Shown: positions 1,688 through 47,683 of the stretch, one piece after another
Position numbering within the stretch: the first letter of the stretch is position 1
Layout of the letters: every line of letters begins with the position of its first letter
Assembly (NCBI GenBank): GCA_025353765.1
Contig: JANXOD010000008.1
Location: forward strand, 434,001-498,000
Origin: Sphingobacteriales bacterium
Lineage (GTDB): Bacteria; Bacteroidota; Bacteroidia; Sphingobacteriales; Sphingobacteriaceae
Reading direction: 5' to 3'
DNA: 64,000 nt
Notes under the pieces: generated by a model
Told to the model about the DNA's origin: nothing
What the model saw: only the letters and a program-made list of their open reading frames with translations
The model's database searches: none
Program-made: the position numbers and the translations under genes

Positions 1688-3745
1688 ATGTCAGAAGTAA
1701 AAACAGAAAAAGAATTTAAACCTTATATCCCTGCGAGTAGTAAAGTAGCAGAATTTACGGTTAAGTCCATTTTATTGGGTGCATTATTTGGAATTATTTT
1801 CGGTGCAGCAACCGTTTATTTAGCTTTAAAAGCTGGTTTAACCGTTTCTGCATCTATTCCAATTGCAGTGTTAGCCATATCTATCGGACGCAAATTTTTT
1901 AAAACTACTATTTTAGAGAACAACATTATTCAAACTACCGGCTCGGCGGGAGAATCTATTGCCGCAGGAGTAGTATTTACCCTTCCGGGATTTCTTTTTC
2001 TTTCGGCAGGAAGTAATGGCGAAGGATTCTTTTCTTATTGGCCGATATTTTTTCTGGCCGCATTAGGTGGAATATTGGGTACCTTGATGATGATCCCACT
2101 ACGTAAATCATTAATTGTAGATGAACATGAGGCACTTCCTTATCCGGAAGGAACAGCCTGTGCAGCCGTATTAATTGCCGGAGAAAAAGGTGGAGATTTC
2201 GCAAAGCCTGCTTACTATGGATTAGCCTTTGCCTTTGCCTACGCTATCCTGCAAAAAGTATTTCATATTATAGCAGAAACCCCGGCCTGGGTAAGTCAGC
2301 AAAGCAATAAATATTTTCCTTCTGCTACTTTAAACGGCGATATCACACCTGAATATTTAGGTGTTGGCTATATTATAGGCCCAAGAATAGCCGGAGTATT
2401 AGTGGCCGGTGGCGTATTAGCCTGGTTAGGATTAATTCCGCTTTTAGCTTCCTTGGTTCCGGCAGATACCACGGCTTTCCAATTGGTTAAATTAGGATAT
2501 TTAAAAGATATATTAACTCCCGGCGGACCGGGCGGCTGGAATCCGGCTACACATTCCTTTGCCGATACTGCTTCAGCCATATACCGGGCCTATGTACGAC
2601 AAATTGGTGCAGGTGCCGTTGCGGCCGGAGGTTTTATTACCTTAGTTAAAACCATCCCAACTATTGTATCTTCTTTCAAATCAAGTTTGGCATCCATCAA
2701 TAAAACAGACGAACAGAAGAAAGCAATAAAACGTACCGATGATGATCTTTCTTTCAAAACCGTGATTTTTGGAAGTATCGCCTTAATCGTTTTAATGGTT
2801 GTATTGCCTCAAATTCCCGGTGACTCTGTGCTTAATAAATTGTTGATCGGTGTATTGGTTATTGTATTTGGTTTTTTCTTCGTTACGGTATCCAGTCGTA
2901 TTGTTGGGCTAATTGGTTCATCGTCTAATCCTATTTCCGGTATGACCATTGCCACCTTAATGGGAACTTGTTTGGTTTTTGTAAGCATCGGCTGGACGGG
3001 GCATTTATACGAACCTATGGCTTTAGTAGTGGGAAGTATGATATGCATCGCGGCTGCCAATGCAGGAGCCACTTCGCAGGATTTAAAAACAGGATATATT
3101 GTAGGTGCTACTCCAAAATACCAGCAAATCGCTTTATTTATAGGTGCTATTGTTTCTGCTGTTGTTATTGGTGTTACCTTGTCTATTTTAGATCGTCCAA
3201 CACAAAGTATGCTTGCCCAGGGAATTCATCATGCAATAGGTACCGATCTTTATCCTGCTCCTCAGGGCACATTAATGGCCACTTTAATAAGAGGCTTATT
3301 ATCCTTTAATCTGGATTGGCAGTTTGTGTTAGTGGGCGTTTTTCTATCCATTACCATGGAACTTTGCGGAGTAAAATCACTTTCATTTGCTGTGGGCGCT
3401 TATTTACCGCTTGCTACAACCTTACCTATTTTTGCCGGTGGTGCTATTAAAGGATTAGTAGACTGGAGAGCAAAAAAGAAAAATGAACAAACGGAGGAGG
3501 ATGAATTAGGGAAAGGAAGTTTATTTGCTACCGGTTTAGTTGCCGGAGGTGCCTTAATGGGCGTAATCTATGCCTTCTTAAAAGCCTTTGAAGTAACTGC
3601 AACTCCGGTTGATAAATTGAATATAGAGGAATCCTTAACTAGCAGCTTAGGTTCAGGAGGATATCAGATCATGGGTTTTATTTTCTTTGTAATTATGGGA
3701 TTGGCACTTTATAAAATTGCGATACAGAAAACGAAAGAAGTTTAG
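1688..3745 (+). CDS. OPT-family oligopeptide transporter
   Basis: Inner-membrane transporter of the OPT superfamily, expected to import small peptides or metal-siderophore-like compounds using the proton gradient. The 685 residues contain at least twelve strongly hydrophobic segments spread along the length. The N-terminal half holds AATVYLALKAGLTVSASIP and NIIQTTGSAGESIAAG, which are hallmark patterns of the bacterial OPT branch, followed by LPYPEGTACAAVL. A cytosolic charged stretch near 590-605 separates the last helices. The ATG is preceded by an A/T-rich leader. It is monocistronic, with a strong terminator after it. Substrate is not predictable from sequence. Confidence 0.9.
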   Translation: MSEVKTEKEFKPYIPASSKVAEFTVKSILLGALFGIIFGAATVYLALKAGLTVSASIPIAVLAISIGRKFFKTTILENNIIQTTGSAGESIAAGVVFTLPGFLFLSAGSNGEGFFSYWPIFFLAALGGILGTLMMIPLRKSLIVDEHEALPYPEGTACAAVLIAGEKGGDFAKPAYYGLAFAFAYAILQKVFHIIAETPAWVSQQSNKYFPSATLNGDITPEYLGVGYIIGPRIAGVLVAGGVLAWLGLIPLLASLVPADTTAFQLVKLGYLKDILTPGGPGGWNPATHSFADTASAIYRAYVRQIGAGAVAAGGFITLVKTIPTIVSSFKSSLASINKTDEQKKAIKRTDDDLSFKTVIFGSIALIVLMVVLPQIPGDSVLNKLLIGVLVIVFGFFFVTVSSRIVGLIGSSSNPISGMTIATLMGTCLVFVSIGWTGHLYEPMALVVGSMICIAAANAGATSQDLKTGYIVGATPKYQQIALFIGAIVSAVVIGVTLSILDRPTQSMLAQGIHHAIGTDLYPAPQGTLMATLIRGLLSFNLDWQFVLVGVFLSITMELCGVKSLSFAVGAYLPLATTLPIFAGGAIKGLVDWRAKKKNEQTEEDELGKGSLFATGLVAGGALMGVIYAFLKAFEVTATPVDKLNIEESLTSSLGSGGYQIMGFIFFVIMGLALYKIAIQKTKEV

Positions 3746-7948: not shown

Positions 7949-9329
7949 TGCAGTTGGAATTGCTTCTATTTGATAATATTATTCCCATTTTTGATTGTAT
8001 ATCAGCTTTTTTGTTTGCATCAAAGCCGATATATACATCTGTTCCTTCTAAGCCTCTCCAGGCTAAAGCCTTATAATAATCAATATCAAATTTATTATTA
8101 TCATATTGTTTTAATGCATTACCCATAATATCTATGTAATAATTAGCAATAAATTCATGGCTAAATCCATCTGCTAGCTTATATTGAGAATATAAGTTAA
8201 ACATACTTGGAAAATTCATAGTATTAAGATTGTTGGGTCCATGAATACTTAATAACTTTCGATAAATTTCTGCATGCACGCCTTCGTGTAACAATGTCAG
8301 CGCTACTTCAATACTTGGCATATTGTCAATCTTATTTTGATTTAGTGTGAGGTCAATATTATGAGAATTCCAATTAGAAGGCTTTAGCTCTGTTTCACCA
8401 TCAATGAGAGGATCTGCTATGGGTACTATTTTAAAGGTAAGATCAATAGGCTTATTCTCGCCAATAAAATTATTAAGTGCCGTTTTATAATAATTGTTTT
8501 GCATCAATTTGTTTAATGCACACATGGCTTTTTCATTTCGATAAAAGTTTGCTGTCATGGTGGTATCTAAAGCGTTCGGATCTGTCGGTTCTGCTACCGG
8601 CGCAGGATTATAATTCCCACCTCCACCACCACCATGCGAAAATCCAGAATAAGGATCTCCCTCACCAATTGGAAAAGAAGGAAAAGGAATATCAAAACCA
8701 CCACCACCAAAAGAGGGAGAGGGATCCGGGTATCCGGGCGGATCTGCAGGAATGGTAATCGTTATTTCCGGTCCCTGATAACTAAAACCAATCGGGCCAG
8801 GGCCGGGATCTGTTCCGCCACCACTGCCTGGTTCCTCGCCTGGTGCAGGTTCGGGCTCTTGTTCCTTCTCTTTCATCACTTTCATTCCGGGAGGGGCAAT
8901 TGATGTTAATGAGTGGTTTTGCCGATTGTAAGTAGCCCGTGTAATTAATTGACCCTTTCCGCTATAAATGTTTAATTGGTCTTTTTTATCCTTAGTCTCT
9001 ACGTATTTTTTGAATATGCCAAAGGGTTTACCATTAGCAATAACCACATTCAGCTCCAGATATACTTGCGGAGAACGGAATAAGGAAAGTCCGAGTACAT
9101 TTTGCCCTTTACTATTTTTAACGATGCTAGCTTTGCTCCAATCGGGAGTATAAGCTTTTAGATCCAGAGCTCCGGAAGAAGTAGGTAACTTTTGTTGACT
9201 ACTATACCAATCTTTGGCCTGTTGTATTAAATAAGGATCTGCGAGCTGATCTGGTTTTAGAGGTGCGTCTTTGCGACAAGAAACAGAACATACAATAAGT
9301 AATGCTAATAGGTAATAATAAATTTTCAT
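7938..9329 (-). CDS. lipoprotein with Pro/Gly-rich linker and C-terminal HExxH metallopeptidase-like domain
   Basis: The first ATG gives a signal peptide ending in the lipobox VCSVSCRK, so the mature protein is lipid-anchored at Cys and probably exposed at the outer membrane. Residues about 20-150 form a globular domain, 155-250 are a Pro/Gly/Glu-rich linker (PGEEPGSGGGTDPGPGP, later GGGGGG), and the C-terminal 200 residues contain HEGVHAEIYR, a zincin HExxH site, with a downstream SHEFIANYY that may give the third ligand. A TTG two codons upstream is open but unnecessary. The following gene overlaps it by 11 bases. Whether it cuts proteins is inference from the motif. Confidence 0.75.
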   Translation of the reverse strand: MKIYYYLLALLIVCSVSCRKDAPLKPDQLADPYLIQQAKDWYSSQQKLPTSSGALDLKAYTPDWSKASIVKNSKGQNVLGLSLFRSPQVYLELNVVIANGKPFGIFKKYVETKDKKDQLNIYSGKGQLITRATYNRQNHSLTSIAPPGMKVMKEKEQEPEPAPGEEPGSGGGTDPGPGPIGFSYQGPEITITIPADPPGYPDPSPSFGGGGFDIPFPSFPIGEGDPYSGFSHGGGGGGNYNPAPVAEPTDPNALDTTMTANFYRNEKAMCALNKLMQNNYYKTALNNFIGENKPIDLTFKIVPIADPLIDGETELKPSNWNSHNIDLTLNQNKIDNMPSIEVALTLLHEGVHAEIYRKLLSIHGPNNLNTMNFPSMFNLYSQYKLADGFSHEFIANYYIDIMGNALKQYDNNKFDIDYYKALAWRGLEGTDVYIGFDANKKADIQSKMGIILSNRSNSNCNDL

Positions 9330-9461
9330 ATTCAACTTTTTAAACTTGCTTTATAGGCATAACCTGTTTAAAGTTTAAAATGTTTTTAAATTCTAAATTT
9401 ATTTAAAAGAGTCAAGCCTCAGCCAATCGGATGGTAATTAAAGGGCATTATCAATTAGATA

Positions 9462-10730
9462 TTATTTCTTTAACACTTCTCTGGCTAATGATTGATCACC
9501 ATCAATGGGGTCAGTATATGTTAAGTCCAAAATTTGTATTATCATAGGATAAATGTTTATATTCTCAAACGGTTTAATTGTTATATTTTGCTTAAAGGCG
9601 GGCCCCCAGGCATAAAAAGTAGCGTTCATATCTTTCACCAATTTAGGGTCGTATCCATGTGTGCCTGGGTTGAGTTTGTGGCCTTTTACTTCAAATATTT
9701 TAGGCCAGTGCGATACCAGTAAAATATCGCCAATGCGGTTATAACGATCATTAGCCAGACCATAATGCCAATGTGTAGGTGTATTGCTGCGCAGGTATAC
9801 ATCATAATCCTTCGCCTGCTTTTTTAGAATATCATAAGTGCTTTTAATGATGGAAGTATCCCTGGCATATAAATGCACCAAAACATTTTCTTGTGATAGG
9901 ATAAACTTAGAACTGTCTGCGACAGCAGGCAGAGCAATGGGATGCTGGATATCTGCTGCCGTCATACCATGATCTGATACAAATACAAAGTTTACTGGGA
10001 GGCCAGTGGCCTTAACCGCTTTATTCAGTTCATGTACTGCCGAATCAATAAATAGTACCTGTTTGCGGGTTTCTGCTGATTCAGGCCCATATTTATGCCC
10101 GGCTTCGTCTACTTCCGGTAAGTAAAAAGTAATAAGGTGTGGACGTGTTTCGGCGGGTAGTTTTAACCAGTTTACCACCGTTTGTATTCGTTTATGGATG
10201 CCTATGTTTTCATTGTATTTGTAATAGTAGGTTGGAAATATTCCTTTAATATCAGCATCGGAACCTACCCAGTAAAAATTAGCCGAAAGCAGGTGCTGCT
10301 GCTCTGCCAACACCCATAAAGGAGTGCCCTTATACCAGTTACCATCTCTACTGATTTTACCTCTGAATGAATAGGATTGCTTTAAGTTGCGATCATAGAA
10401 ACGGTTACCTACAATTCCATGATGTGTGGGATATAAACCGGTAGCTATGGAATAATGATTAGGAAAAGTAACAGAAGGATAAACCGGGATCATGGATTGG
10501 GCAGAAACACCCTTTTTGCTTAAAGTTAGTAAATGTTCGGCATGGTACTTTTCGGCATAGTCATATCGGAAGCCATCGGCCGAAATTAGGATAACATACG
10601 GCTTTTTTTGCTGTTCAATAGTATTTTTACGGCTCTTTATTACCATTTGAATGGTATCCTCCGCATTCTGACTAAAGGCAGTATATGAATAAAGCAGGCC
10701 GAGTATCAATAAAATCTTTTTTCTCATCAT
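9462..10730 (-). CDS. exported ectonucleotide pyrophosphatase/phosphodiesterase-like enzyme
   Basis: Alkaline-phosphatase-superfamily enzyme of the NPP group, expected to hydrolyse nucleotide or other phosphodiesters in the periplasm using two zinc ions. I chose the ATG giving MMRKKILLILGLLYSYTAFSQ, a signal peptide cleaved after the Ser; an ATG four codons further upstream is open. Metal and nucleophile motifs are in family order: ISADGFRYDY (first Asp), YPSVTFPNHYSIATG (Thr nucleophile), PEVDEAGHKYGP, VSDHGM and NPGTHGYDP. About 422 residues is normal for bacterial members. It is monocistronic and separated from the lipoprotein pair by 132 bases. Confidence 0.9.
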   Translation of the reverse strand: MMRKKILLILGLLYSYTAFSQNAEDTIQMVIKSRKNTIEQQKKPYVILISADGFRYDYAEKYHAEHLLTLSKKGVSAQSMIPVYPSVTFPNHYSIATGLYPTHHGIVGNRFYDRNLKQSYSFRGKISRDGNWYKGTPLWVLAEQQHLLSANFYWVGSDADIKGIFPTYYYKYNENIGIHKRIQTVVNWLKLPAETRPHLITFYLPEVDEAGHKYGPESAETRKQVLFIDSAVHELNKAVKATGLPVNFVFVSDHGMTAADIQHPIALPAVADSSKFILSQENVLVHLYARDTSIIKSTYDILKKQAKDYDVYLRSNTPTHWHYGLANDRYNRIGDILLVSHWPKIFEVKGHKLNPGTHGYDPKLVKDMNATFYAWGPAFKQNITIKPFENINIYPMIIQILDLTYTDPIDGDQSLAREVLKK

Positions 10731-14363: not shown

Positions 14364-15824
14364 TGATTTGCTTTTAAGTTTGTTTAACAAAGCAATAATA
14401 TCTACGGTTGCAAAAGATGAACAATAATCTGAAAGGCCGTAAGGAATAATCAGTTTTTCATTGTGGATAATGGAGCCACATGAATACAATACATTTGGTA
14501 CATAACCTTCCCGTTCATCTTTATTTGGGATAAGTAAGGGTTCGTCTAAGCGTCCAATTTCTATAGAAGGATCCTCCAGGTTTAACAAACTCGCACCCAA
14601 ACAATACCGACGCATAGGACCAACGCCATGAGTAATAACAAGCCAGCCATACTCTGTTTCTATTGGCGAACCACAATTACCAATTTGAATATATTCCCAT
14701 GGATATTGTGGTTGTTGCAATAGAACCGGGTTTTCCCAAACATTTATCCGATCTGAATACATGATGTAATTATTCCATCCATCGATACGGGACATCATAG
14801 CATATTTCCCATTTATTTTTCTGGGAAATAAAGCTAGATTTTTATTCTGGGCCCCTGCTCCGTATAATGGGGATATTGTAAAATCATAAAAATCAGTTGT
14901 ACGAAGCAGTTTAGGCATAATCAAAGCTCCATCATAAGCAGTGTAGGTTGCGTAATAAATAGCCGTGCCATCTTCTTTTATAAAACGTACAAAACGGGCA
15001 TCTTCAATTCCCTTACGTTCAAATTCGGAAATTGGGAATATTACCCGGTCTGATATATCCGTATCTTTTGAAAAACTGATATCATGATATGAATCAGACA
15101 ACCACAGCACTTTGTCGAATTCTAATTTTTTCATATTATCATCCTGAAGATTTTTAGAATCCATGATAATTCTACGCAGATTCTGATAATCGAACTTATC
15201 TTCCAGTTTTTCTTTTACTTCTTCTAAAATATGAGCGTCAATTTTACTTTCTATCGCCTTGTCGAAAAAAAGTTTTTTGGTATAAGTGGCATTCCTGATA
15301 ATTTCAGCTTCATCTATGTAATTTCCTGATGGCATGACAGTAATGTTACTATGTTTATCAACCAAAGCTCTTCTAAATACGATAGATGAAATATGCCCTT
15401 CTCCTACCGCTCTAAAACTAATAATCAATCTTTTTTCCCCTTCTTCCAACTCGGTTTGATCCGGATCTTCTACAATAGAAGGATTAAAAAATGCTGCCGA
15501 TTCAATAGAATACTCATGTGTAAAGTATGATCCGATTAATAGTTTGCGATACGATTTTAACTTATCAAAATTAATTTTCTCTTCTACAAAAAGAGGTTTT
15601 AGCTTATCACAATGTCGGTTTAAAATTTTAGTAATATTCCGATGGCGTTTAGAATATTCCTGAAGGATAGGTGATACAATACTGAAAACCTCTTCTTCAG
15701 AAAGTAACATAACACGTTTAATAAGTTCTTTTGCACGACTATCTTCTGTGAAAAAAAAACGGGCAATCACACGTTTTGGGTCAGGGTAAACTTTAACTGG
15801 TTTACGCTCTATGGATAATCTCAT
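14352..15824 (-). CDS. GH130 family beta-mannoside phosphorylase or hydrolase
   Basis: The 490-residue protein fits the five-bladed propeller family GH130, which phosphorolyses or hydrolyses beta-linked mannosides. Visible features are FNPSIVEDPDQ, ISFRAVGEGHISSIVFRR, the GIEDARFVRF region carrying the catalytic Asp of the family, YYATYTAYDG, MSRIDGWNNYIMYSD and the substrate-site GNCGSPIETEYGWLVITHGVG. It has a longer N-terminus (about 100 residues) than the short phosphorylases, which points to a subgroup associated with polysaccharide remodelling. No signal peptide, so cytosolic. It converges on two GT4 genes, suggesting that it trims, primes or recycles the glycan they make. Phosphorylase versus hydrolase is not resolved. 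Confidence 0.85.
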   Translation of the reverse strand: MRLSIERKPVKVYPDPKRVIARFFFTEDSRAKELIKRVMLLSEEEVFSIVSPILQEYSKRHRNITKILNRHCDKLKPLFVEEKINFDKLKSYRKLLIGSYFTHEYSIESAAFFNPSIVEDPDQTELEEGEKRLIISFRAVGEGHISSIVFRRALVDKHSNITVMPSGNYIDEAEIIRNATYTKKLFFDKAIESKIDAHILEEVKEKLEDKFDYQNLRRIIMDSKNLQDDNMKKLEFDKVLWLSDSYHDISFSKDTDISDRVIFPISEFERKGIEDARFVRFIKEDGTAIYYATYTAYDGALIMPKLLRTTDFYDFTISPLYGAGAQNKNLALFPRKINGKYAMMSRIDGWNNYIMYSDRINVWENPVLLQQPQYPWEYIQIGNCGSPIETEYGWLVITHGVGPMRRYCLGASLLNLEDPSIEIGRLDEPLLIPNKDEREGYVPNVLYSCGSIIHNEKLIIPYGLSDYCSSFATVDIIALLNKLKSKSSAV

Positions 15825-15969
15825 ACTATACTAGTTTGGGTTGGATTGGCGAAATTAGCATCTAAATTATAATCTCGTGAAAATTAATTAATATAATATT
15901 ATGTTTAGGATAAACTGAAGTTCCAAAAACTATTCCCATTTTTATATCATTGATAAATGTGTCTATTAG

Positions 15970-16647
15970 ATGAATGTACTTATTATTGAAGATGAAAAAA
16001 GTTTAGCTCTTGAAATAGCCGGCTTTCTGGGAAAAGAAGGGTTTATGATTGACCATGCTTGGAAAAAGTCATCCGCTTCAGAAAAAATATTTGTTAATTC
16101 TTATGATTTTATATTGCTTGATCTTGGTTTACCTGATGGAAATGGCTTTGATTTACTCCATCAATTAAAAAATCTGCCCGGCCGTGAAGATGGAGTGATT
16201 ATTTTAACTGCCCGCAATGCTGTTGATGATCGTATAAAGGGTCTTGAAGAAGGAGCTGACGACTATTTAGCAAAGCCTTTTTCACTTTCTGAGTTGCTTG
16301 CACGTATGCATGCTATTACACGGAGAAAGCATAAACTTGAAAAAAATGAAGTGAATATTCATGGCCTTACATTAGATATAAGAAACAGGACGGTTATTTT
16401 TAACAATGAACGCATTAATCTCACTAAAAAAGAATATGAAATTTTCAATTATTTGGTTCTTAATAAAAACAGAGTAATTTCACGAATGAATTTAACAGAG
16501 CATGTTTGGGGAGATATTCTGGAGATTAATTCTGATTCTAATTTTGTAGATGTTCATGTTAAAAATCTTCGCAAAAAACTGGCTAATTTAATACCCATCG
16601 ACTGGTTTGAAACGGTGAGAAGCATTGGGTACCGGATAAATATATAA
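15970..16647 (+). CDS. OmpR/PhoB-family response regulator
   Basis: Two-domain transcription regulator of 225 residues. The receiver domain has the acidic pair EDE at 7-9, the phosphoacceptor D51 in FILLDLGLPDG, the switch Thr in ILTARN and the conserved Lys in YLAKPFS. The C-terminal winged helix (about 130-225) contains LTKKEYEIFNYLV, the recognition helix region SDSNFVDVHVKNLRKKL and the closing wing RSIGYRI. It is followed after 21 bases by its sensor kinase. The divergent GH130 gene is 145 bases away, so the shared upstream region could hold a control site. Confidence 0.93.
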   Translation: MNVLIIEDEKSLALEIAGFLGKEGFMIDHAWKKSSASEKIFVNSYDFILLDLGLPDGNGFDLLHQLKNLPGREDGVIILTARNAVDDRIKGLEEGADDYLAKPFSLSELLARMHAITRRKHKLEKNEVNIHGLTLDIRNRTVIFNNERINLTKKEYEIFNYLVLNKNRVISRMNLTEHVWGDILEINSDSNFVDVHVKNLRKKLANLIPIDWFETVRSIGYRINI

Positions 16648-19691: not shown

Positions 19692-21836
19692 ATGAAGCTA
19701 AATGTTGCTGGAATCGCCTTTTTTGCGGGTGCTCTAACTTTTTCAATGTCGGCCTTAGCGCAGCAAAAGAAAGAGTTAACCTTTAATGAAGTTTTTGTAA
19801 AGGCTCCAAAAGAAATTATTAAGCCCATGCCGATTCAAAAAGGATGGGCAGATAATACACATTACATTGAATATCGTGGTGAAGGGCAAACGAACCCTTT
19901 TACGGTTGATGCTAAAACCGGCAACGCTGTACCTTCTGCACCTGCACAAGTGAATGAAGCGAGCGTAAGTGTAAAGGATAAAAATCTTTTTTACAAAGAT
20001 GCATCCAGTAAAGAAACACAACTGACCAAAGATACGCTGGAAGAAAAAAATCCAACCTTATCGCCGGATTGCAAACAAGTAGCTTTTACACGCAAAAACG
20101 ACCTATATTCTGTGGATATAAACAGCGGGAAGGAAACACGTTATAGTACAGATGGATCTGATGTGGTTTATAACGGTTGGGCTTCATGGGTTTATTATGA
20201 AGAGATCTTAGGCAGACCAACAAAGTATAAAGCATTTTGGTGGAGTCCGGATAGTAAACAAATCGCATTTATGCATTTTGATGATTCGCAGGTTCCTGTT
20301 TTCCCAATATATAATTCTAATGGTCAGCATGGGTTTTTAGAAAATACCCGGTATCCTGAATGTGGTGATAAAAACCCGGAAGTGAAAATGGGCATTGTAA
20401 CCGCAGGCAAAACCGGAACTGTTTGGACAGATTTTAATCCCAAAGACGACCAATATTTTGGAACTCCTTTCTGGATGGCAGATAGCAAAACATTATGGAT
20501 GCAATGGATGAACCGCGATCAAAATGATCTGATCATTTATTCTGTAAAACCTGCCAATGGCAGCAAAAGTATTATTTATGAAGAGAAACAAAAAACCTGG
20601 GTAGACTGGTTTGATGATATGTATTTCCTTAAAAATGGTCAGGGCTTTATTCTTCGCAGTGATAAAACCGGATGGGGCCATTTCTACTATATGGATTTAA
20701 CCGGGAAATTAAAAAAGCAATTAACTTCCGGAAACTGGCGGGTTGCTGATTTGCTCTTAGTAGATGAGAAAGCCCAGAAAATATTCTTCACAGCCCGTAA
20801 AGAAGCTTCTACCCGTTTTGATTTGTATAAAGTGAGTTTAAAAGGCGGAGAACCTAAGCGTTTAACGTTTGGAGATTATGATCATACTGTAAGCCTATCG
20901 CCGGATGGCAGCTATTTTATAACCACGTATTCTAATTTGCACAGTCCCATTAAAACGGCTCTTTTGGATAGAAACGGAAAGCTAATTCGTGAACTGGCCA
21001 GCTCACAAGGTGCTGAATATGCAAATTATAACTTGCCTAAAACAGACTTGGTTTATTACAAAACCCGCGACGGATTAGATTTACCGATGACCGTTACCCT
21101 GCCTTTAAATTTTGATAAGAATAAAAAATATCCCTTATGGATTTCTATTTACGGTGGCCCGGATGCAGGAACGGTTTACGACAGATGGAAAAGTCCGCTT
21201 GGGCAAAATTACTGGTGGGCAAAAGAAGGTATGATTCAAGTGGCTATTGATAATCGCAGTGCCGGACATCTAGGTAAAACTGGCATGAATTACATTTATC
21301 GCCAATTAGGCAAATATGAAATTGATGATTATATAGATGCCGTAAATTCTTTAAAAGCTAAGGGAAACATAGATGAAAATAAGGTTGGCATTACCGGCGG
21401 AAGTTTTGGAGGATATATAACTGCTATGGCTTTAACCTATGGAGCAGATGTATTTACACATGGTATAGCTATGTTTTCTCCTACAGATTGGGCTTTGTAT
21501 GATACGCATTATACAGAAAGATACATGGACAAACCACAAGATAATCCCGAAGGATATAAACTGACTTCACCCCTAACCTATGCTGATAAATTAAAAGGAA
21601 AATTCCGCATTGTACATGGTACGATGGATGATAATGTACATATGCAAAACAGCATCCAACTCGTAAATAAACTGGAAGATTTAAATAAGCATTTTGAATT
21701 TATGCTCTACCCGGGTGAACGTCATGGTTTTAGGGGCCTAAAAGCCCGCCACAGCAGCCAGGAAACCACCCGCTTTTTATATAAAGATTTTCTGGAGAAA
21801 CCTCTTCCGGTGGATTTTTTGGAATATTGGAAGTAA
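19692..21836 (+). CDS. dipeptidyl peptidase IV, S9 family
   Basis: Exported prolyl dipeptidyl peptidase, which removes X-Pro or X-Ala dipeptides from peptides in the periplasm or at the surface. A signal peptide (to ALAQ at about 24) precedes an eight-bladed propeller with VYNGWASWVYYEEILGRP, the double-Glu substrate anchor of DPP IV. The alpha/beta hydrolase domain carries the nucleophile S571 in GGSFGGY, the acid in GTMDDNVH (D646/D647) and H678 in ERHGF. The 714 residues match bacterial DPP IV. It is monocistronic and ends near a hairpin. Confidence 0.93.
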   Translation: MKLNVAGIAFFAGALTFSMSALAQQKKELTFNEVFVKAPKEIIKPMPIQKGWADNTHYIEYRGEGQTNPFTVDAKTGNAVPSAPAQVNEASVSVKDKNLFYKDASSKETQLTKDTLEEKNPTLSPDCKQVAFTRKNDLYSVDINSGKETRYSTDGSDVVYNGWASWVYYEEILGRPTKYKAFWWSPDSKQIAFMHFDDSQVPVFPIYNSNGQHGFLENTRYPECGDKNPEVKMGIVTAGKTGTVWTDFNPKDDQYFGTPFWMADSKTLWMQWMNRDQNDLIIYSVKPANGSKSIIYEEKQKTWVDWFDDMYFLKNGQGFILRSDKTGWGHFYYMDLTGKLKKQLTSGNWRVADLLLVDEKAQKIFFTARKEASTRFDLYKVSLKGGEPKRLTFGDYDHTVSLSPDGSYFITTYSNLHSPIKTALLDRNGKLIRELASSQGAEYANYNLPKTDLVYYKTRDGLDLPMTVTLPLNFDKNKKYPLWISIYGGPDAGTVYDRWKSPLGQNYWWAKEGMIQVAIDNRSAGHLGKTGMNYIYRQLGKYEIDDYIDAVNSLKAKGNIDENKVGITGGSFGGYITAMALTYGADVFTHGIAMFSPTDWALYDTHYTERYMDKPQDNPEGYKLTSPLTYADKLKGKFRIVHGTMDDNVHMQNSIQLVNKLEDLNKHFEFMLYPGERHGFRGLKARHSSQETTRFLYKDFLEKPLPVDFLEYWK

Positions 21837-42006: not shown

Positions 42007-42303
42007 ATGAGTGCCAAAACTATTTTTATTATTATCATCTCGGTATTGGTTACCATCATTTTGATGAATAATACAGATGAGGTAAATTTCTGGATTTTTG
42101 GAGACGCCCGTGTTCCTAAATTAGCGGTATTAGGTGTAATGTTTGCGTTGGGCTTAATTGTAGGATTTGTAGCAGGCAGGCCACGTAAAAAATCGGATGT
42201 TATTCAAGACAATATAAATTCTCATTCTTACAAAGAAGAGGAAGGAATTAGAAATAGTAATCCAAATTATCTTAGTGATGAAGACCAGGAATATATCAAA
42301 TAA
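42007..42303 (+). CDS. LapA-like (DUF1049) small membrane protein
   Basis: The 98 residues hold two membrane helices (about 4-20 and 39-58) joined by NNTDEVNFWIFGDARVPK, the pattern of the LapA/DUF1049 family, which in E. coli helps lipopolysaccharide assembly. The polar tail (60-98) is charged. It starts 2 bases after the stop of the large surface protein and is probably cotranscribed. Confidence 0.8.
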   Translation: MSAKTIFIIIISVLVTIILMNNTDEVNFWIFGDARVPKLAVLGVMFALGLIVGFVAGRPRKKSDVIQDNINSHSYKEEEGIRNSNPNYLSDEDQEYIK

Positions 42304-42315
42304 AAGCACCGGGAT

Positions 42316-42828
42316 ATGAAATGCATCCTCTTGTTTCTATTATGCAGTATGTTTAGCATATCTTCAAAGGCACAACAACCGCTATTGCCCCTAAATTACA
42401 CATTGGATATTCCTGCAGATTTCAGACAATATGAGAATAATGTTACCAATTGTATTCAATGGTTTGGCGAAACTCCCAGAAATATAGATATTGAAAAACG
42501 AAAGCAAACGGAAGATTTTCTGGTAAAATGGATCTATGGTTGTCCATATATTACAGTTGTGATAGAGCCTTATGTGATGAAACTATCTGCTAAAAATGCA
42601 GATCTGTTACTTAGTTTCATGTTTGGGTATACTGTTTATCAATTACAAAATTTAGGCAATAAAAATCTTCTGCCTGCTAATATAGCTGGCTTAAATCAGC
42701 TTATTAAAGATTATAAACTGAATAACAAGTTGCTAAAGTCAGATTCTTCCATTGATAAAATTATAGAATTACAAGCAAGTGGGAAATTGTCGGATTGGGT
42801 AATGCCTCAACTTGGGCAGGAGTATTAA
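42316..42828 (+). CDS. secreted hypothetical protein
   Basis: Signal peptide (MKCILLFLLCSMFSISSKAQ) followed by about 150 residues with two cysteines (NVTNCIQWFG and YGCPYIT) and helical patterns. No family is recognised. It begins 12 bases after the LapA-like gene in the same direction and ends 27 bases before the asparagine-synthetase-like gene, so all may share a transcript. Confidence 0.72.
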   Translation: MKCILLFLLCSMFSISSKAQQPLLPLNYTLDIPADFRQYENNVTNCIQWFGETPRNIDIEKRKQTEDFLVKWIYGCPYITVVIEPYVMKLSAKNADLLLSFMFGYTVYQLQNLGNKNLLPANIAGLNQLIKDYKLNNKLLKSDSSIDKIIELQASGKLSDWVMPQLGQEY

Positions 42829-42855
42829 TCTAATATCAAACTTTATATTTCATCC

Positions 42856-45048
42856 ATGAATGCTTTTTTTGGCTTTGTTCAATTTCAAAACTCTGAAAGT
42901 CATTCAGAAAAAAATAAATACTTCTCTAATGCTGTATTTTTAGCTTTTCCAACCCGATTTCCTCGCAGAAAGATAATTTCGGAAAATAATATAGCTCTTG
43001 CGGGAGATTTTGAATCATTTTGTACAGAAGGGAAGTCATTATTTTTTAACGGTGAAATTTATAACAGGCAGGAAATAGAAAAGGTTCTGGGTATTTCATC
43101 TTCCTTGCACAAAAGTAACGCTGCTCTGGTTTGTGAATTAATTCTGCAAAAAGGTTTAGAAGCTGTACAGATCATAAACGGACAATTCTTAATTATTTAT
43201 GTTAATAAGCAGGACCAGAAAGTTCATCTTATAAATGATCATATGGGCATCAGGCAGTTGTATTATTATCATGATAAAAATATCCTGCTCTTTGGCTCTG
43301 AAATAAAATTTCTGCTCGTTCACCCAGATTGTTCTAAAGACATAGATTGGGAAACTTCCCTAAAGCGCCCTCATCCAAGCAATGTATTAAGCTGTTTCAA
43401 AAGTTACAAAACATGGTTCAATGGAGTTAATCTTCTTCCTGAAGCATCTATCATACATTCAGATTCTAAAAAGAAAGAAATAAAAATCAGTACCTATTGG
43501 AATCATACGGAAAGAACAAATTACGATTATAAGGATGACAGAAGAACTGCCAAAGACGTAATGGAAGAATATATTAGTTTGCTAGATGATTCTATCAAAA
43601 TCAGGATAAATAATCAGTCTACCAATTACTCCTTGCTTAGTGGTGGCTTAGATTCATCTGCTATTGTTGCTCTCGGTGCCAAATACAGCCCATTAGAAAC
43701 TTTTTCTATTATTACCCAAACTACTTATTTAGAAGATACAACTAGTATTTGTACGAATTTGGCTAATGATCTTCACATTAAAAATTCGCAATTTCTTATT
43801 CCAATACATGAAATTTCTTTCAATACTAATTTATGGAAGCAATGGATATGGCGGATGGAATCACCTGTAAATCATACAGACTCACTTACTAAAACGCTTT
43901 TGCATTATGCTATTAGGAAAAAATATCCGGATGTAAAATCGGTTTTAACCGGTACCGGCAGTGACCAGTTGAACGGAGGCCTTGTAAGATGGATTGTAAA
44001 TGATAACGGAAATGAAGAGGAAAACTGGGAAAATTTCCACCGTGAAATACAGGACAGGGAAAATCATAAAATAATAACCCAAAAAGATGATGATTTATGG
44101 AATTGCAGGAACCTTATCAATCGTGAATATCTGGTATCAATTTCAGAAAATGCAATTGAAAACAATTCATGGATGCATTATGTAAATAGTACACTTCACT
44201 CTGAACTATTTAGTCTTCGTTGGGATGAAGTACGGGCATCCAATTATCATGGGCATGAAACCAGGTTTCCTTTTTTAGATTTCCGTTTTATAGATTTTAT
44301 TGCAAAAATTCCTCCAAAGCTCCATAAAGAGCTGTTTTTCGACAAACCCATTCTGCGAATTCCATTAAAAAAAATACTTCCTGAGTATGTTTTGAACAAG
44401 CCTAAGGTGCCAGCATATATTCCTGATTATGACTACCGTTTTAAACTCTATAATTTCCTTACAAGTAACAAGAATCTGATGGAAGAAGCATTAGATGCTA
44501 TAGATCAGTCGCATCCGGTTATCAATAAACCAGCTTTTTTTAAAAGAATTAAACTATTGCAGGAAAACCCCAATATTTTTGAATGGAATAACATTATGAA
44601 AATACTGAACATAGGATTACTTGAAAAACTTGTCGGTAAAAATGAAAAAGAAATGGATATCGAATCATTGATAGAGGAGCCAATAGAAATTGATTTTAAT
44701 GAAAGCAGAAAAACAAAAATATTTTTAGAGACCAAACTATCTATAAAAAACAAGAATAGTGCAGAAATAGATTTGCAAAAACCCTTATTTTTTAGAGAAA
44801 ACTGCGCCTTACTCTTTAACAGCATGAATAATAAATTCTTCCTCTCTAAAGGGAATGAATTGGCCTTTGAGATTGAAGATCAATATACAGACTGGAAGAA
44901 TTTTTTAATAAAAATTGATAATAAACAAAGCATTCAACAATTATTAGATGATTTGTCAATTTCATACCATATCATCGAAGGATTTCTAAAAATAGCTTTA
45001 GAAGAAAAAATACTTTGTGTTGCCAGAGCAATTACTAACAAAGTATAG
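42856..45048 (+). CDS. asparagine-synthetase-like ATP-dependent amide-forming enzyme with C-terminal winged-helix-like tail
   Basis: The 730 residues contain an Ntn-glutaminase-like N-domain (about 1-185: FFNGEIYNRQEI and NDHMGIRQLYYY) and an asparagine-synthase ATP-pyrophosphatase domain (about 230-530) with the P-loop SLLSGGLDSSAIVALG and VLTGTGSDQLNGG. The N-terminus is MNAFFGF and lacks the Cys2 of true glutaminases, so ammonia from glutamine is unlikely; this is the situation in lasso cyclases and beta-lactam synthetases, which join an internal amine. The last 90 residues (about 640-730: DWKNFLIKIDNKQSIQQLLDD and so on) resemble a winged-helix or PqqD-like peptide-binding tail. A 47-residue GG-leader gene converges with it. 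Role in peptide modification is inference. Confidence 0.8.
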   Translation: MNAFFGFVQFQNSESHSEKNKYFSNAVFLAFPTRFPRRKIISENNIALAGDFESFCTEGKSLFFNGEIYNRQEIEKVLGISSSLHKSNAALVCELILQKGLEAVQIINGQFLIIYVNKQDQKVHLINDHMGIRQLYYYHDKNILLFGSEIKFLLVHPDCSKDIDWETSLKRPHPSNVLSCFKSYKTWFNGVNLLPEASIIHSDSKKKEIKISTYWNHTERTNYDYKDDRRTAKDVMEEYISLLDDSIKIRINNQSTNYSLLSGGLDSSAIVALGAKYSPLETFSIITQTTYLEDTTSICTNLANDLHIKNSQFLIPIHEISFNTNLWKQWIWRMESPVNHTDSLTKTLLHYAIRKKYPDVKSVLTGTGSDQLNGGLVRWIVNDNGNEEENWENFHREIQDRENHKIITQKDDDLWNCRNLINREYLVSISENAIENNSWMHYVNSTLHSELFSLRWDEVRASNYHGHETRFPFLDFRFIDFIAKIPPKLHKELFFDKPILRIPLKKILPEYVLNKPKVPAYIPDYDYRFKLYNFLTSNKNLMEEALDAIDQSHPVINKPAFFKRIKLLQENPNIFEWNNIMKILNIGLLEKLVGKNEKEMDIESLIEEPIEIDFNESRKTKIFLETKLSIKNKNSAEIDLQKPLFFRENCALLFNSMNNKFFLSKGNELAFEIEDQYTDWKNFLIKIDNKQSIQQLLDDLSISYHIIEGFLKIALEEKILCVARAITNKV

Positions 45049-45098
45049 TGACTTTATCTTATTCTGATCCCAAGCAAATGCTAAAATACAATAAAAAA

Positions 45099-45123
45099 GC
45101 AAGAATAAATTAATTACTCTTGC
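45099..45123. terminator. imperfect bidirectional terminator
   Basis: GCAAGA and TCTTGC at the two ends of a 25-base near-palindrome with A/T-rich centre, preceded by AAAAAA. It lies between the enzyme gene and the small peptide gene, which converge. Confidence 0.5.
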
Positions 45124-45150
45124 TCCTTAAATTGTAAGTTTTAATAATTT

Positions 45151-45294
45151 TTAATTAACACTCAAAGCACCACAGTTTACTAATGGGTTATTAACCACAG
45201 TACCTACACTTATAGGGTTAGTAGTTACAGAAGTTGCTGTTGTTCCATTTCCACCGTTTACGGTTTGCATTTGGGATGTTGTTAATTTTTTCAT
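45151..45294 (-). CDS. 47-residue double-glycine leader peptide (bacteriocin/RiPP-like precursor)
   Basis: ATG at 45292-45294, TAA at 45151-45153. The product starts MKKLTTSQMQTVNGG, the bacteriocin-type leader with a double glycine after which C39-type peptidases cut, and continues with a 32-residue core rich in Thr, Val, Asn and Ser (NGTTATSVTTNPISVG, then TVVNNPLVNCGALSVN) with a single Cys and no Asp, Glu, Lys or Arg. Charge-free composition, length and leader fit secreted peptides common in this phylum. A -7 box lies 30 bases upstream. No transporter or C39 peptidase is in this window. It is shorter than usual gene-calling limits and easily missed. Confidence 0.75.
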   Translation of the reverse strand: MKKLTTSQMQTVNGGNGTTATSVTTNPISVGTVVNNPLVNCGALSVN

Positions 45295-45323
45295 TTTTTT
45301 AAGTTTAAGTGAAGAATAATTTG

Positions 45324-45331
45324 CAAACTTA
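45324..45331 (-). promoter_or_regulatory. -7 box of the GG-leader peptide gene
   Basis: On the minus strand TAAGTTTG matches TAnnTTTG exactly, leaving a leader of about 20-25 bases to the ATG at 45294. A TTG lies further upstream but with shorter spacing than usual. Confidence 0.45.
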
Positions 45332-45602
45332 AAAAAAAATGGAACAACCTAACTAGAAGTCGAAAAAAACTTTCAAATAACCCCTCCCTCATAATGATTT
45401 ATTGAAATACTATATAATTAGTTAAAATTTCTATAAGATTCCCATCACCTAATCTATTTGCTTTTGAGATGCTATTAATTTTTTCCTGAGTGAGTTTTAT
45501 AAAAAAACAAATGGATTAAAATGGTTATAAAAACAAAAAATTGATAATCATAATATCAGATATCTTCATTATCAACAAAATAAAGCTTAAAAATGTTTTT
45601 TA

Positions 45603-45627
45603 TTGAAAATGTATTTTTCTACCTTTG
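45603..45627 (+). promoter_or_regulatory. rpsA promoter
   Basis: TACCTTTG (45620-45627) matches TAnnTTTG exactly, 41 bases before the rpsA ATG; TTG at 45603-45605 may be the -33 element but its spacing is short. The remaining bases of the 373-base gap 45295-45667 are A/T-rich and show no further gene. Confidence 0.55.
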
Positions 45628-45667
45628 CAGTCCGATTTAAATTGGAACAAAGGAGATAAATTAATTA

Positions 45668-47683
45668 ATGGCCAAAAAATTAGAAGCTGAAAAGGAGTTA
45701 ATAGCTAAAGAAGCAGAACTTTCTATCGAAGAAACCACTACGGTTAAAGAAAAAGAAAACATTGAATCAGAGGCTGACTCAATGTCCATCGAAGAGATCA
45801 AATCTAAAACGATGATTACCCCTTCCGGCGATTTTGACTGGGATGCAGATGACAAAGGTTTCGGAAACTACAGTACTGCAGATCGTGAAAAATTTGAAGA
45901 AATGTACGCCGGAACATTCAGTTCAATTACAAAAGGAGAAATTATTCCTGGTATTGTGGTATCAATCAACAACAAGGATGTAGTATTAAACGTAGGCTTT
46001 AAGTCTGATGGTTTAGTATCATCCTCAGAATTTCGCGATATGCCGGATCTTAAAATTGGTGATTCGGTTGACGTGTTTGTAGAATCACAGGAAGATGCTA
46101 ACGGACAATTAGTATTATCTCGTAAACGTGCTAAAACCCAACGTTCATGGGAAACCATTAATGAAGCTTTAGATCAGGATAAAATCATCACAGGTTTTGT
46201 AAAGAGCCGTACTAAAGGTGGTTTAATTGTAGATATTATGGGTGTTGAAGCTTTCTTACCCGGATCTCAGATCGATATTAAACCAATTCGTGACTATGAT
46301 ATCTACGTTGGTAAAACAATGGAATTTAAAGTGGTTAAGATTAATCACGAATTTAAAAACGTAGTCGTATCACACAAAGTTCTGATCGAAGACGATTTGG
46401 AAAATCAAAAAACAGAAATAGTTGCAAAACTAGAAAAAGGCCAGGTGCTTGAAGGTACTGTTAAAAACATCACAGATTTCGGTGTGTTTATTGACCTTGG
46501 CGGTGTAGATGGTTTATTACACATAACCGATATTTCATGGGGCCGTATAGAACATCCGCGTGAAGTGTTAAACTTAGACCAAAAAATTAATGTTGTAGTT
46601 TTAGATTTTGATGACGAGAAAAAACGTATCGCATTAGGTTTAAAACAATTATCTGCTCATCCTTGGGAAGCTTTAGATACCACCTTAGAAATTGGTTCTA
46701 AAGTGAAAGGTAAGATTGTAACTGTAGCTGATTATGGCGCATTCTTAGAAATTACTCCGGGAGTAGAAGGACTTATCCACGTTTCTGAAATGTCATGGTC
46801 TCAAAACTTACGTAATCCACAAGAATTCTTAAAAGTTGGTGATGAAGTTGAAGCCCAGGTATTGACATTAGATCGTACGGAACGTAAAATGAGCTTAGGT
46901 ATTAAGCAATTAACTCCAGATCCTTGGAAAAATATTGGTGAGCGTTATCCTATTGGAAGCAAATACAAAGCGGTAGTTAAAAACATGACTAATTTCGGTG
47001 TATTTGTTGAAATTGAAGACGGAATTGACGGTTTAATCCATATTTCTGATCTGTCATGGTCTAAAAAAGTCAATCATCCTAATGAATTTACTAAAGTTGG
47101 GGAAGAATTAGATGTAGTTGTTTTAGAACTTGATGAGGAAAATCGCAAACTTAGCCTTGGACATAAACAATTAGAAGAAAATCCTTGGGAAACTTTCGAA
47201 ACAATCTTCACTGTGGATTCTGTTCATGAAGGAACTGTGTTGAAAGTTACAGACAAAGGTGCTATTATAGCTTTACCATACGGTGTAGAGGGATTTGCTC
47301 CAACTAAACACATGGTTAAGCAAGATGGAACTTCTGTTAAGGCTGAAGAAGCTGCCGAATTCAGAATTATTGAATTTAACAAAGATTCTAAACGCATAGT
47401 TGTTTCTCACGCCCGTATTTGGGAAGAGGCTAAAGCAGAAGAGCGTAAAGAAGAGATGACCCAAAAGAAGAAAGACGCTAAAGCAACAGTAAGTGCTGTT
47501 AAAAAAGTGAAAGATTCTGTTGAGAAATCTACTCTAGGTGATTTAGGCGTATTGGCACAATTAAAAGAGAAGATGGAAGGTGCAGAAAGCAAAGCCAAAA
47601 AAACTAAAAAAGCCGAAGATGAAACTGCTGCTGTTCCTAAAGCTAAAAAGGCTGAAGAGAAAACAGAAGAAAAAGCTGAATAA
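45668..47683 (+). CDS. rpsA: 30S ribosomal protein S1
   Basis: Ribosomal protein that binds mRNA near the platform of the small subunit. The 671 residues hold six S1 (OB-fold) repeats, visible as KGEIIPGIVVSINNKDVVLN, GFVKSRTKGGLIVDI, GTVKNITDFGVFIDLGG, GKIVTVADYGAFLEI, AVVKNMTNFGVFVEIEDG and GTVLKVTDKGAIIALPYG. The N-terminal 75 residues are a charged extension and the last 60 are Lys/Ala/Glu-rich, both longer than in E. coli S1 (557), as usual in Bacteroidota. A terminator follows; pyrR comes next. Confidence 0.96.
   Translation: MAKKLEAEKELIAKEAELSIEETTTVKEKENIESEADSMSIEEIKSKTMITPSGDFDWDADDKGFGNYSTADREKFEEMYAGTFSSITKGEIIPGIVVSINNKDVVLNVGFKSDGLVSSSEFRDMPDLKIGDSVDVFVESQEDANGQLVLSRKRAKTQRSWETINEALDQDKIITGFVKSRTKGGLIVDIMGVEAFLPGSQIDIKPIRDYDIYVGKTMEFKVVKINHEFKNVVVSHKVLIEDDLENQKTEIVAKLEKGQVLEGTVKNITDFGVFIDLGGVDGLLHITDISWGRIEHPREVLNLDQKINVVVLDFDDEKKRIALGLKQLSAHPWEALDTTLEIGSKVKGKIVTVADYGAFLEITPGVEGLIHVSEMSWSQNLRNPQEFLKVGDEVEAQVLTLDRTERKMSLGIKQLTPDPWKNIGERYPIGSKYKAVVKNMTNFGVFVEIEDGIDGLIHISDLSWSKKVNHPNEFTKVGEELDVVVLELDEENRKLSLGHKQLEENPWETFETIFTVDSVHEGTVLKVTDKGAIIALPYGVEGFAPTKHMVKQDGTSVKAEEAAEFRIIEFNKDSKRIVVSHARIWEEAKAEERKEEMTQKKKDAKATVSAVKKVKDSVEKSTLGDLGVLAQLKEKMEGAESKAKKTKKAEDETAAVPKAKKAEEKTEEKAE

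Follow-up and report, generated by a model that had tools for sequence, protein, structure and literature searches.

The window, a 64,000-nucleotide stretch of a Sphingobacteriales genome, carries two convergent genes upstream of rpsA. One encodes an enzyme of the asparagine synthetase superfamily (P0001), and the other encodes a short peptide with a double-glycine (GG) leader. Their positions and those of the associated features are collected in Table 1. The initial annotation had described a short minus-strand GG-leader ORF with an uncharged 32-residue core and one Cys, and an asparagine-synthetase-like enzyme ending 103 bases away. The ORF was found as described, the composition of the core was confirmed by residue count, and the identity of the neighbouring enzyme was borne out by its profile scores. 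The two genes are indeed adjacent, with a measured gap of 102 bases.

Table 1. The convergent gene pair and its features (positions are those of the window).
Feature	Position	Strand	Basis
Asparagine-synthetase-superfamily enzyme (P0001), 730 aa, glutaminase residues lost	42856..45048	+	PF00733 113.3 bits, GATase_7 65.1 bits
Degenerate glutamine-amidotransferase half	42856..43320	+	Alignments
Synthetase (adenylating) domain	43576..44445	+	PF00733 over residues 241-530
C-terminal domain, ~residues 640-730	44773..45045	+	Alignment to three Streptomyces enzymes
21-codon GTG ORF overlapping the enzyme stop, YSDP (YxxP)	45048..45113	+	ORF reading
Terminator-like hairpin 3' of the peptide gene	45094..45128	-	Hairpin scan
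GG-leader peptide gene, 47 codons	45151..45294	-	ORF and translation
32-residue core, C-terminal Asn, one Cys, uncharged	45154..45249	-	Sequence
Leader MKKLTTSQMQTVNGG	45250..45294	-	Sequence
-7 box TAAGTTTG, Bacteroidota type	45324..45331	-	Sequence

The peptide gene and its surroundings

The core contains no Asp, Glu, Lys, Arg or His, has a single Cys (Cys41), and ends in Asn47. In the leader, Leu is at position -12, Met at -7, Val at -4 and Gly at both -2 and -1. Curated leader models scored just under their cut-offs on the 47-mer (NF047798, 17.6 bits with a cut-off of 23.5; TIGR01847, 14.6 with a cut-off of 15.7). Upstream, the box TAAGTTTG has what we take to be the Bacteroidota -7 consensus pattern. 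It lies 29 bases before the ATG, one base closer than originally noted. The hairpin downstream of the gene is a weak signal, with three terminator-like sites in a 3.1-kb stretch compared with 1.6 expected.

To gauge how rare such ORFs are, we used a regular expression for GG leaders that was composed after sight of this leader. Applied to 464 kb of the same genome (the window plus 20 contiguous-type stretches from two contigs), it matched 3 ORFs, against a mean of 0.0 in three dinucleotide-shuffled passes. None of 4000 shuffles of positions 45049-45667 contained a GG-leader ORF. Because matching ORFs are rare in the genome and absent from the shuffles, the peptide gene is not a chance frame. 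In 531 kb of the genome, a set that includes four stretches picked for their C39 domains, four matching ORFs lay outside larger genes, this one included. That density is a lower bound, since the expression misses at least one GG-leader ORF (2308..2559 of stretch L030). With about four GG ORFs per 531 kb, the occurrence of one within ~250 bases of a given gene would be roughly a 1% event. This figure is a guide and not a test, because the pair was chosen by eye.

Other GG-leader peptides are encoded in the same genome. Stretch L078 carries two in tandem (9194-9358 and 9393-9563), followed by genes for membrane-type proteins, one of which we labelled CPBP-like. The second peptide scored 18.7 bits with TIGR03949 (cut-off 21.5) and 15.8 with TIGR01847 (cut-off 15.7), and the locus resembles that of a class IIb-like two-peptide bacteriocin. 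Stretch L033, picked for its two C39-type domains, encodes a GG-leader peptide of 58 residues with many Gly and Cys (15805-15981). There was no AsnB-like motif near the tandem peptides or the L033 peptide in the stretches read.

No exporter, protease, PqqD or immunity gene adjoining the pair was recognised among the neighbouring ORFs. Five C39-type domains (PF03412) were over cut-off in the genome as a whole. Two of these lie within long ABC-type frames of 743 and 788 residues (at L030 and L031), neither of which adjoins the pair. Curated exporter models cover most of the length of both frames at scores under cut-off (TIGR01193, 446 and 390 of 523.85), and each frame is followed by a gene that we labelled HlyD-like. 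A C39 exporter at a distant locus could cleave the GG peptide and export it in trans. A grasp-with-SPASM RiPP cluster with a C39-ABC exporter and an HlyD-like protein occupies positions 2308-10083 of L030. Its ATP-grasp and SPASM maturases were over cut-off (TIGR04192, TIGR04193), and its GG peptide reached 24.6 of 25 with TIGR04149.

Of 19 same-genus relatives, 18 offered a complete 1.5 kb upstream of rpsA. The enzyme and the peptide were both missing there in 18 of 18, and 16 relatives had a gene there instead that we labelled cytidylate-kinase-like. The 170-aa protein preceding the enzyme was present in only 2 of the 19 (G014 and G015), where the same three genes occur together and are then followed by a different gene. 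Taken together, the absence of both genes before rpsA and the gene order in G014 and G015 mean that the enzyme and the peptide share a segment (~42829-45550) that, of the genomes read, belongs to this one alone. The end of the segment is slightly low in G+C (0.28-0.31).

The initial annotation had named a lack of conservation of the 47-codon frame among relatives as telling against its reading. The frame was not conserved: it was found in 1 of 170 genomes, its own, with an E value of 0.01. Because the enzyme is equally absent elsewhere, this result fits a genome-specific pair and an unrelated peptide equally well. A plasmid search with the peptide gave two weak matches only (E 4 and E 6), which we disregarded.

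Active sites and nearest relatives of the enzyme

The glutaminase half of the enzyme looks dead from its alignments. Asn2 replaces the Cys2 that is a feature of glutamine-dependent asparagine synthetases, the HRGPD motif is missing, and the SD of relatives has become SN. The TIGR01536 score was 192.7 bits compared with a cut-off of 267.1. The adenylation half retains the SGGLDSS loop, Asp370, Lys497 and Lys517, and an alignment of 26 rows has 17 invariant columns, which include all of these residues except where the loop varies. The enzyme does not carry the Glu-Tyr dyad of AS-like amidation and nitrilation enzymes. The corresponding positions are Gln371 (the Glu of the DE motif) and Leu376 (the Tyr of GGY), mapped by motif spacing with PesC itself outside the alignment. 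The changes in the glutaminase half and the dyad would favour an acceptor other than ammonia, and they would also match expectation for a decaying enzyme.

A fold model of the enzyme matched E. coli AsnB, beta-lactam synthetase (1mbz and 1jgt, 17-19% identity), TsnB9 and carbapenam synthetase. Beta-lactam synthetase is a glutamine-independent, amide-forming enzyme with a small-molecule substrate. The whole-enzyme model, made with 25 AsnB-like rows, had a mean pLDDT of 68.6 and is good only within parts of the two main domains. It is poor at residues 377-437 and over most of 548-678, and the last 50 residues scored 61-77.

The genomes searched by profile or tblastn for the enzyme or its parts numbered at most some 1,200 of 97,973. 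Fifteen of 100 relatives, the genome itself included, matched the enzyme at 1e-20. The non-self matches among them were AsnB-like proteins with 25-32% identity (best 1.4e-29). In 395 genomes of the phylum, with two candidates scored per genome among the matches listed, only the genome itself matched at 1e-30. Six exact 8-residue patterns from the enzyme found one AsnB-like protein only in the genome contigs, and the pattern search of viral contigs gave no match to the enzyme. A nine-row alignment search of the viral contigs returned 80 AsnB-like loci, and the C-terminal extension was found in none of their filtered ORFs, the longest of which was 663 aa. PADLOC gave no match, and Rfam gave one match below its gathering score. 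We observed no close relative of the enzyme or the peptide within the genomes searched.

The nearest relatives that we did find are on plasmids, where 17 records matched at E <= 1e-18. The best seven were from Streptomyces (three, 148-167 bits), Rahnella (134 bits) and Cronobacter (three, 117-119 bits), and the other ten were from Rhizobium or Ensifer (107-109 bits). Five neighbourhoods were read among the best seven records, and all five contained a PqqD family gene, an MFS transporter gene, and an ORF of 22 codons that has a YxKP motif and is preceded by a purine-rich, ribosome-binding-like stretch. These small ORFs were first seen by eye in four loci before the motif was searched for, and the count is not blind. 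On the enzyme's side, the initial annotation is supported in that the closest relatives found sit in RiPP-like clusters.

The five 22-codon Y(T/I/A)KP ORFs are absent from the annotation of their plasmids (L044 7625-7693, L045 7608-7676, L047 7827-7895, L046 4137-4205 and L050 1143-1211). Three of the clusters are from Streptomyces, one is from Rahnella and one from Cronobacter. In those from Streptomyces a diiron oxygenase is annotated as well, and the one compared with Pfam matched AurF. The clusters are possibly an undescribed RiPP or peptide-scaffold type, and no paper describing this combination was found, judged from titles and abstract openings. A likeness between GTVVNN in our peptide and GTVVKNN in a Streptomyces 22-mer was given no weight, because the peptide is rich in those residues and the spacing to Pro differs.

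The AsnB-like enzymes of these plasmids (NZ_CP108839, NZ_CP109092, NZ_CP107864, CP042360 and NZ_CP049262) group in the same clade as P0001, with ~23-27% identity in aligned parts. They retain Cys2, HRGPD and SD, whereas P0001 has lost all three. Their clusters include a discrete PqqD, an MFS gene and the 22-codon ORF; no MFS gene was recognised by eye among the ORFs neighbouring P0001, and no discrete PqqD (B1-like) was over cut-off in its genome. A strict GG-leader ORF was present in 0 of the 5 plasmid loci, with five loose matches in all, which speaks against GG leaders as the usual substrate of the clade.

The three Streptomyces enzymes can be aligned, with 13-15% identity, to approximately 90 residues that lie past the synthetase domain of P0001. 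This part is missing from the Rahnella and Cronobacter relatives (615 and 617 residues). When the four C-terminal sequences were made into a profile and compared with the PqqD proteins of the clusters, the match had a probability of 65% over the helical part. When these four enzymes were scanned in 36 windows, the last three matched PqqD at 64-71% and the other 33 at no more than 5.2%. Compared separately, P0001 alone gave 2.3% and the three Streptomyces sequences 29.6%. A fused RRE-like peptide-recognition domain, a PqqD-like winged helix, is plausible at the C-terminus on these profile comparisons. Its fold stays putative because model quality is low there, and the model of the domain folded alone (mean pLDDT 32.5) carries no weight. 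A search of 395 class genomes with the C-terminal part returned itself and two weak matches in unrelated-looking ORFs. The four-row profile found only its own genome among 395 phylum genomes, and itself plus one peptidase-like ORF among 301 family genomes.

Placement apart from the lasso cyclases

In a tree of 36 rows, from which the C-terminal columns were dropped because too few rows fill them, P0001 and the five PqqD-associated AsnB-like proteins fell on one side of a branch with support of 100/100. This group was apart from both the lasso-type cyclases and the other AsnB-like proteins. SH-aLRT support for the same grouping was 99 when five long rows were removed, again 99 when only the synthetase domain was used, and 100 in a 43-row tree that took in all 12 lasso-type loci. 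The rows labelled EPS are 22 loci (L003-L024), with the label drawn from one neighbourhood (L024). The placement of P0001 appears well supported, yet not beyond artefact, because its branch is very long.

Identity as a lasso cyclase was rejected by score (NF033535, 96.8 bits compared with a cut-off of 525) and by the trees, and no lasso cyclase match at 1e-100 was found in the genome. A clade uniting P0001 with the lasso-type cyclases was rejected with a p-AU of 0.0024 when five lasso-type loci were used, and the rejection weakened to 0.0248 with 12. The loci over the NF033535 cut-off were 2 of 5 in the first tree and 8 of 12 in the 43-row tree. The first five were those of the 12 that passed the ORF filter, and some start codons in the larger set were guessed.

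Lasso cyclases belong to the same superfamily as P0001 and are active enzymes that close rings in an ATP-dependent manner. The five lasso-type cyclases compared have also lost Cys2, with Ser in its place in all five, and likewise lack the dyad Glu, while the Tyr is present in three. Given their separate clades, the loss of the glutaminase Cys in P0001 and in these cyclases appears to be parallel. The 32-residue core of our peptide contains no Asp or Glu that could serve as ring acceptor. Because of this, and because the enzyme is no lasso cyclase by score or tree, any chemistry must differ from that of known lasso peptides, as the initial annotation had argued.

Elsewhere in the window, a protein encoded at 19692-21836(+) is peptidase-like with a weak likeness to lasso isopeptidases (NF033523, 51.5 of 400 bits; Dpp5, 89.1 of 900 bits). 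It is ordinary as far as tested.

What the pair may do

A preprint (PMC13060819) counts ~3,800 AS-family proteins near RiPP elements, of which some 3,500 are lasso and about 300 are uncharacterised. Besides lasso cyclases, the characterised AS-like RiPP enzymes that it names comprise two C-terminal amidases and a single nitrile synthetase. Three of the enzymes described there, TsrC, ScdTA and PesC, act on the C-terminal carboxylate of a peptide, as we propose for P0001. PesC uses glutamine or ammonia, and its substrate also ends in Asn. Its dyad (Glu363/Tyr368) is reported as conserved in five AS-like enzymes compared, and changing Tyr368 to Phe abolishes activity (PMC13060819). PesC thus needs Tyr368, whereas P0001 has Leu at that position and no glutaminase Cys. 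We found no GG-leader peptide with an AS-like enzyme in the literature, judged from titles and abstract openings.

Our preferred reading, held tentatively and at somewhat less than even confidence, is that the two genes make up a minimal unit for peptide modification, in which the enzyme acts as a glutamine-independent, ATP-dependent peptide synthetase on the C-terminus of the peptide. That the 47-mer is its substrate is suggested by adjacency within a genome-specific segment, and we give this step much the same guarded credence. The enzyme would use ATP to adenylate a carboxylate, which would be limited to that of the C-terminal Asn47 because the core has no other, and this carboxylate would then most probably be joined to an amine. 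Since the enzyme lacks the residues for glutamine hydrolysis, the attacking group would not be glutamine-derived ammonia. Candidate acceptors are the peptide's own N-terminus, giving a head-to-tail ring, Cys41, giving a thiolactone, free ammonia, or a small amine. Removal of the GG leader would fall to a C39 exporter whose gene lies elsewhere in the genome. Formation of a ring seems unlikely to us when taken as a specific claim, and by analogy it would be the reading closest to the behaviour of glutaminase-dead relatives.

Several points count against the pairing. The genes are convergent and form no operon, close relatives of either gene are lacking in the genomes searched, and the dyad is changed. 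There is also no discrete PqqD over cut-off, and the peptides of the relatives are of another kind (YxKP).

The strongest rival is that the peptide acts alone, as a class II bacteriocin-like or signal peptide that is cut and exported without modification by a C39 exporter encoded elsewhere, and that the enzyme is unrelated to it. We rank it first among the rivals because the genome has such peptides elsewhere, at L078 (9194..9563) and L033 (15805), and no AsnB-like motif accompanies those within the stretch read. The leader begins with MKKLT, as in the tandem pair, the genome encodes two C39-ABC exporters, the gene has its own -7 box and terminator-like site, and the loci of the enzyme's relatives are without a strict GG leader. 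Bacteroidetocins, which are class II GG-leader peptides of Bacteroidota, have the GG leader in common with our peptide, with C39 export assumed, in a comparison that took in the leader. However, the L078 pair has possible immunity genes downstream (our label) and this peptide has none, both genes lie within one genome-specific segment, and the enzyme's relatives are RiPP-like. An unmodified peptide is a serious possibility that we still consider on the doubtful side.

There is only a slim chance that the enzyme modifies a non-peptide substrate, such as an exopolysaccharide or a small metabolite. The AsnB-like proteins from the Bacteroidota searches are probably of that type, judged from one neighbourhood (L024), but the trees set P0001 apart from them and no sugar or metabolite genes directly adjoin it.

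We give similarly little credence to the enzyme acting on another tiny peptide, either the 21-codon ORF that overlaps its stop or one encoded elsewhere. Such a substrate would be consistent with the YSDP of the 21-codon ORF, and with the presence in all five relatives' loci of a 22-codon YxKP ORF preceded by a ribosome-binding-like stretch. However, that ORF starts with GTG, has no ribosome-binding site by eye, and ends inside the terminator-like hairpin, and the genome has no discrete PqqD over cut-off. Within 42300-45700, Y.{1,2}P is found in six short ORFs, and the motif is therefore common by chance.

That the enzyme is decaying or non-catalytic, merely binding peptide or ATP, is very improbable: the changes in both the glutaminase (Cys2, HRGPD, Asp) and the Glu/Tyr dyad and the very long branch would fit, but all 730 codons are intact, the ATP loop and two lysines are retained, and the five lasso-type cyclases compared are also without Cys2 and the dyad Glu, while lasso cyclases are active.

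Returning to the pair as a modification unit, a more far-reaching version is that it represents a new RiPP class, which we regard as improbable. In such a class, a glutaminase-dead asparagine synthetase relative would close GG-leader peptides through their C-terminal carboxylate in a two-gene unit. The ring would be closed head to tail or at the lone Cys, the recognition domain would be fused to the enzyme, and the enzyme would have left ammonia chemistry independently of the lasso cyclases. If true, an enzyme that lost its glutaminase outside the lasso clade, and whose neighbouring peptide has only one carboxylate, would offer a compact example of a new type of bond. The work also points, on plasmids from three genera, to a cluster type that combines PqqD, an AsnB-like enzyme and a 22-codon ORF.
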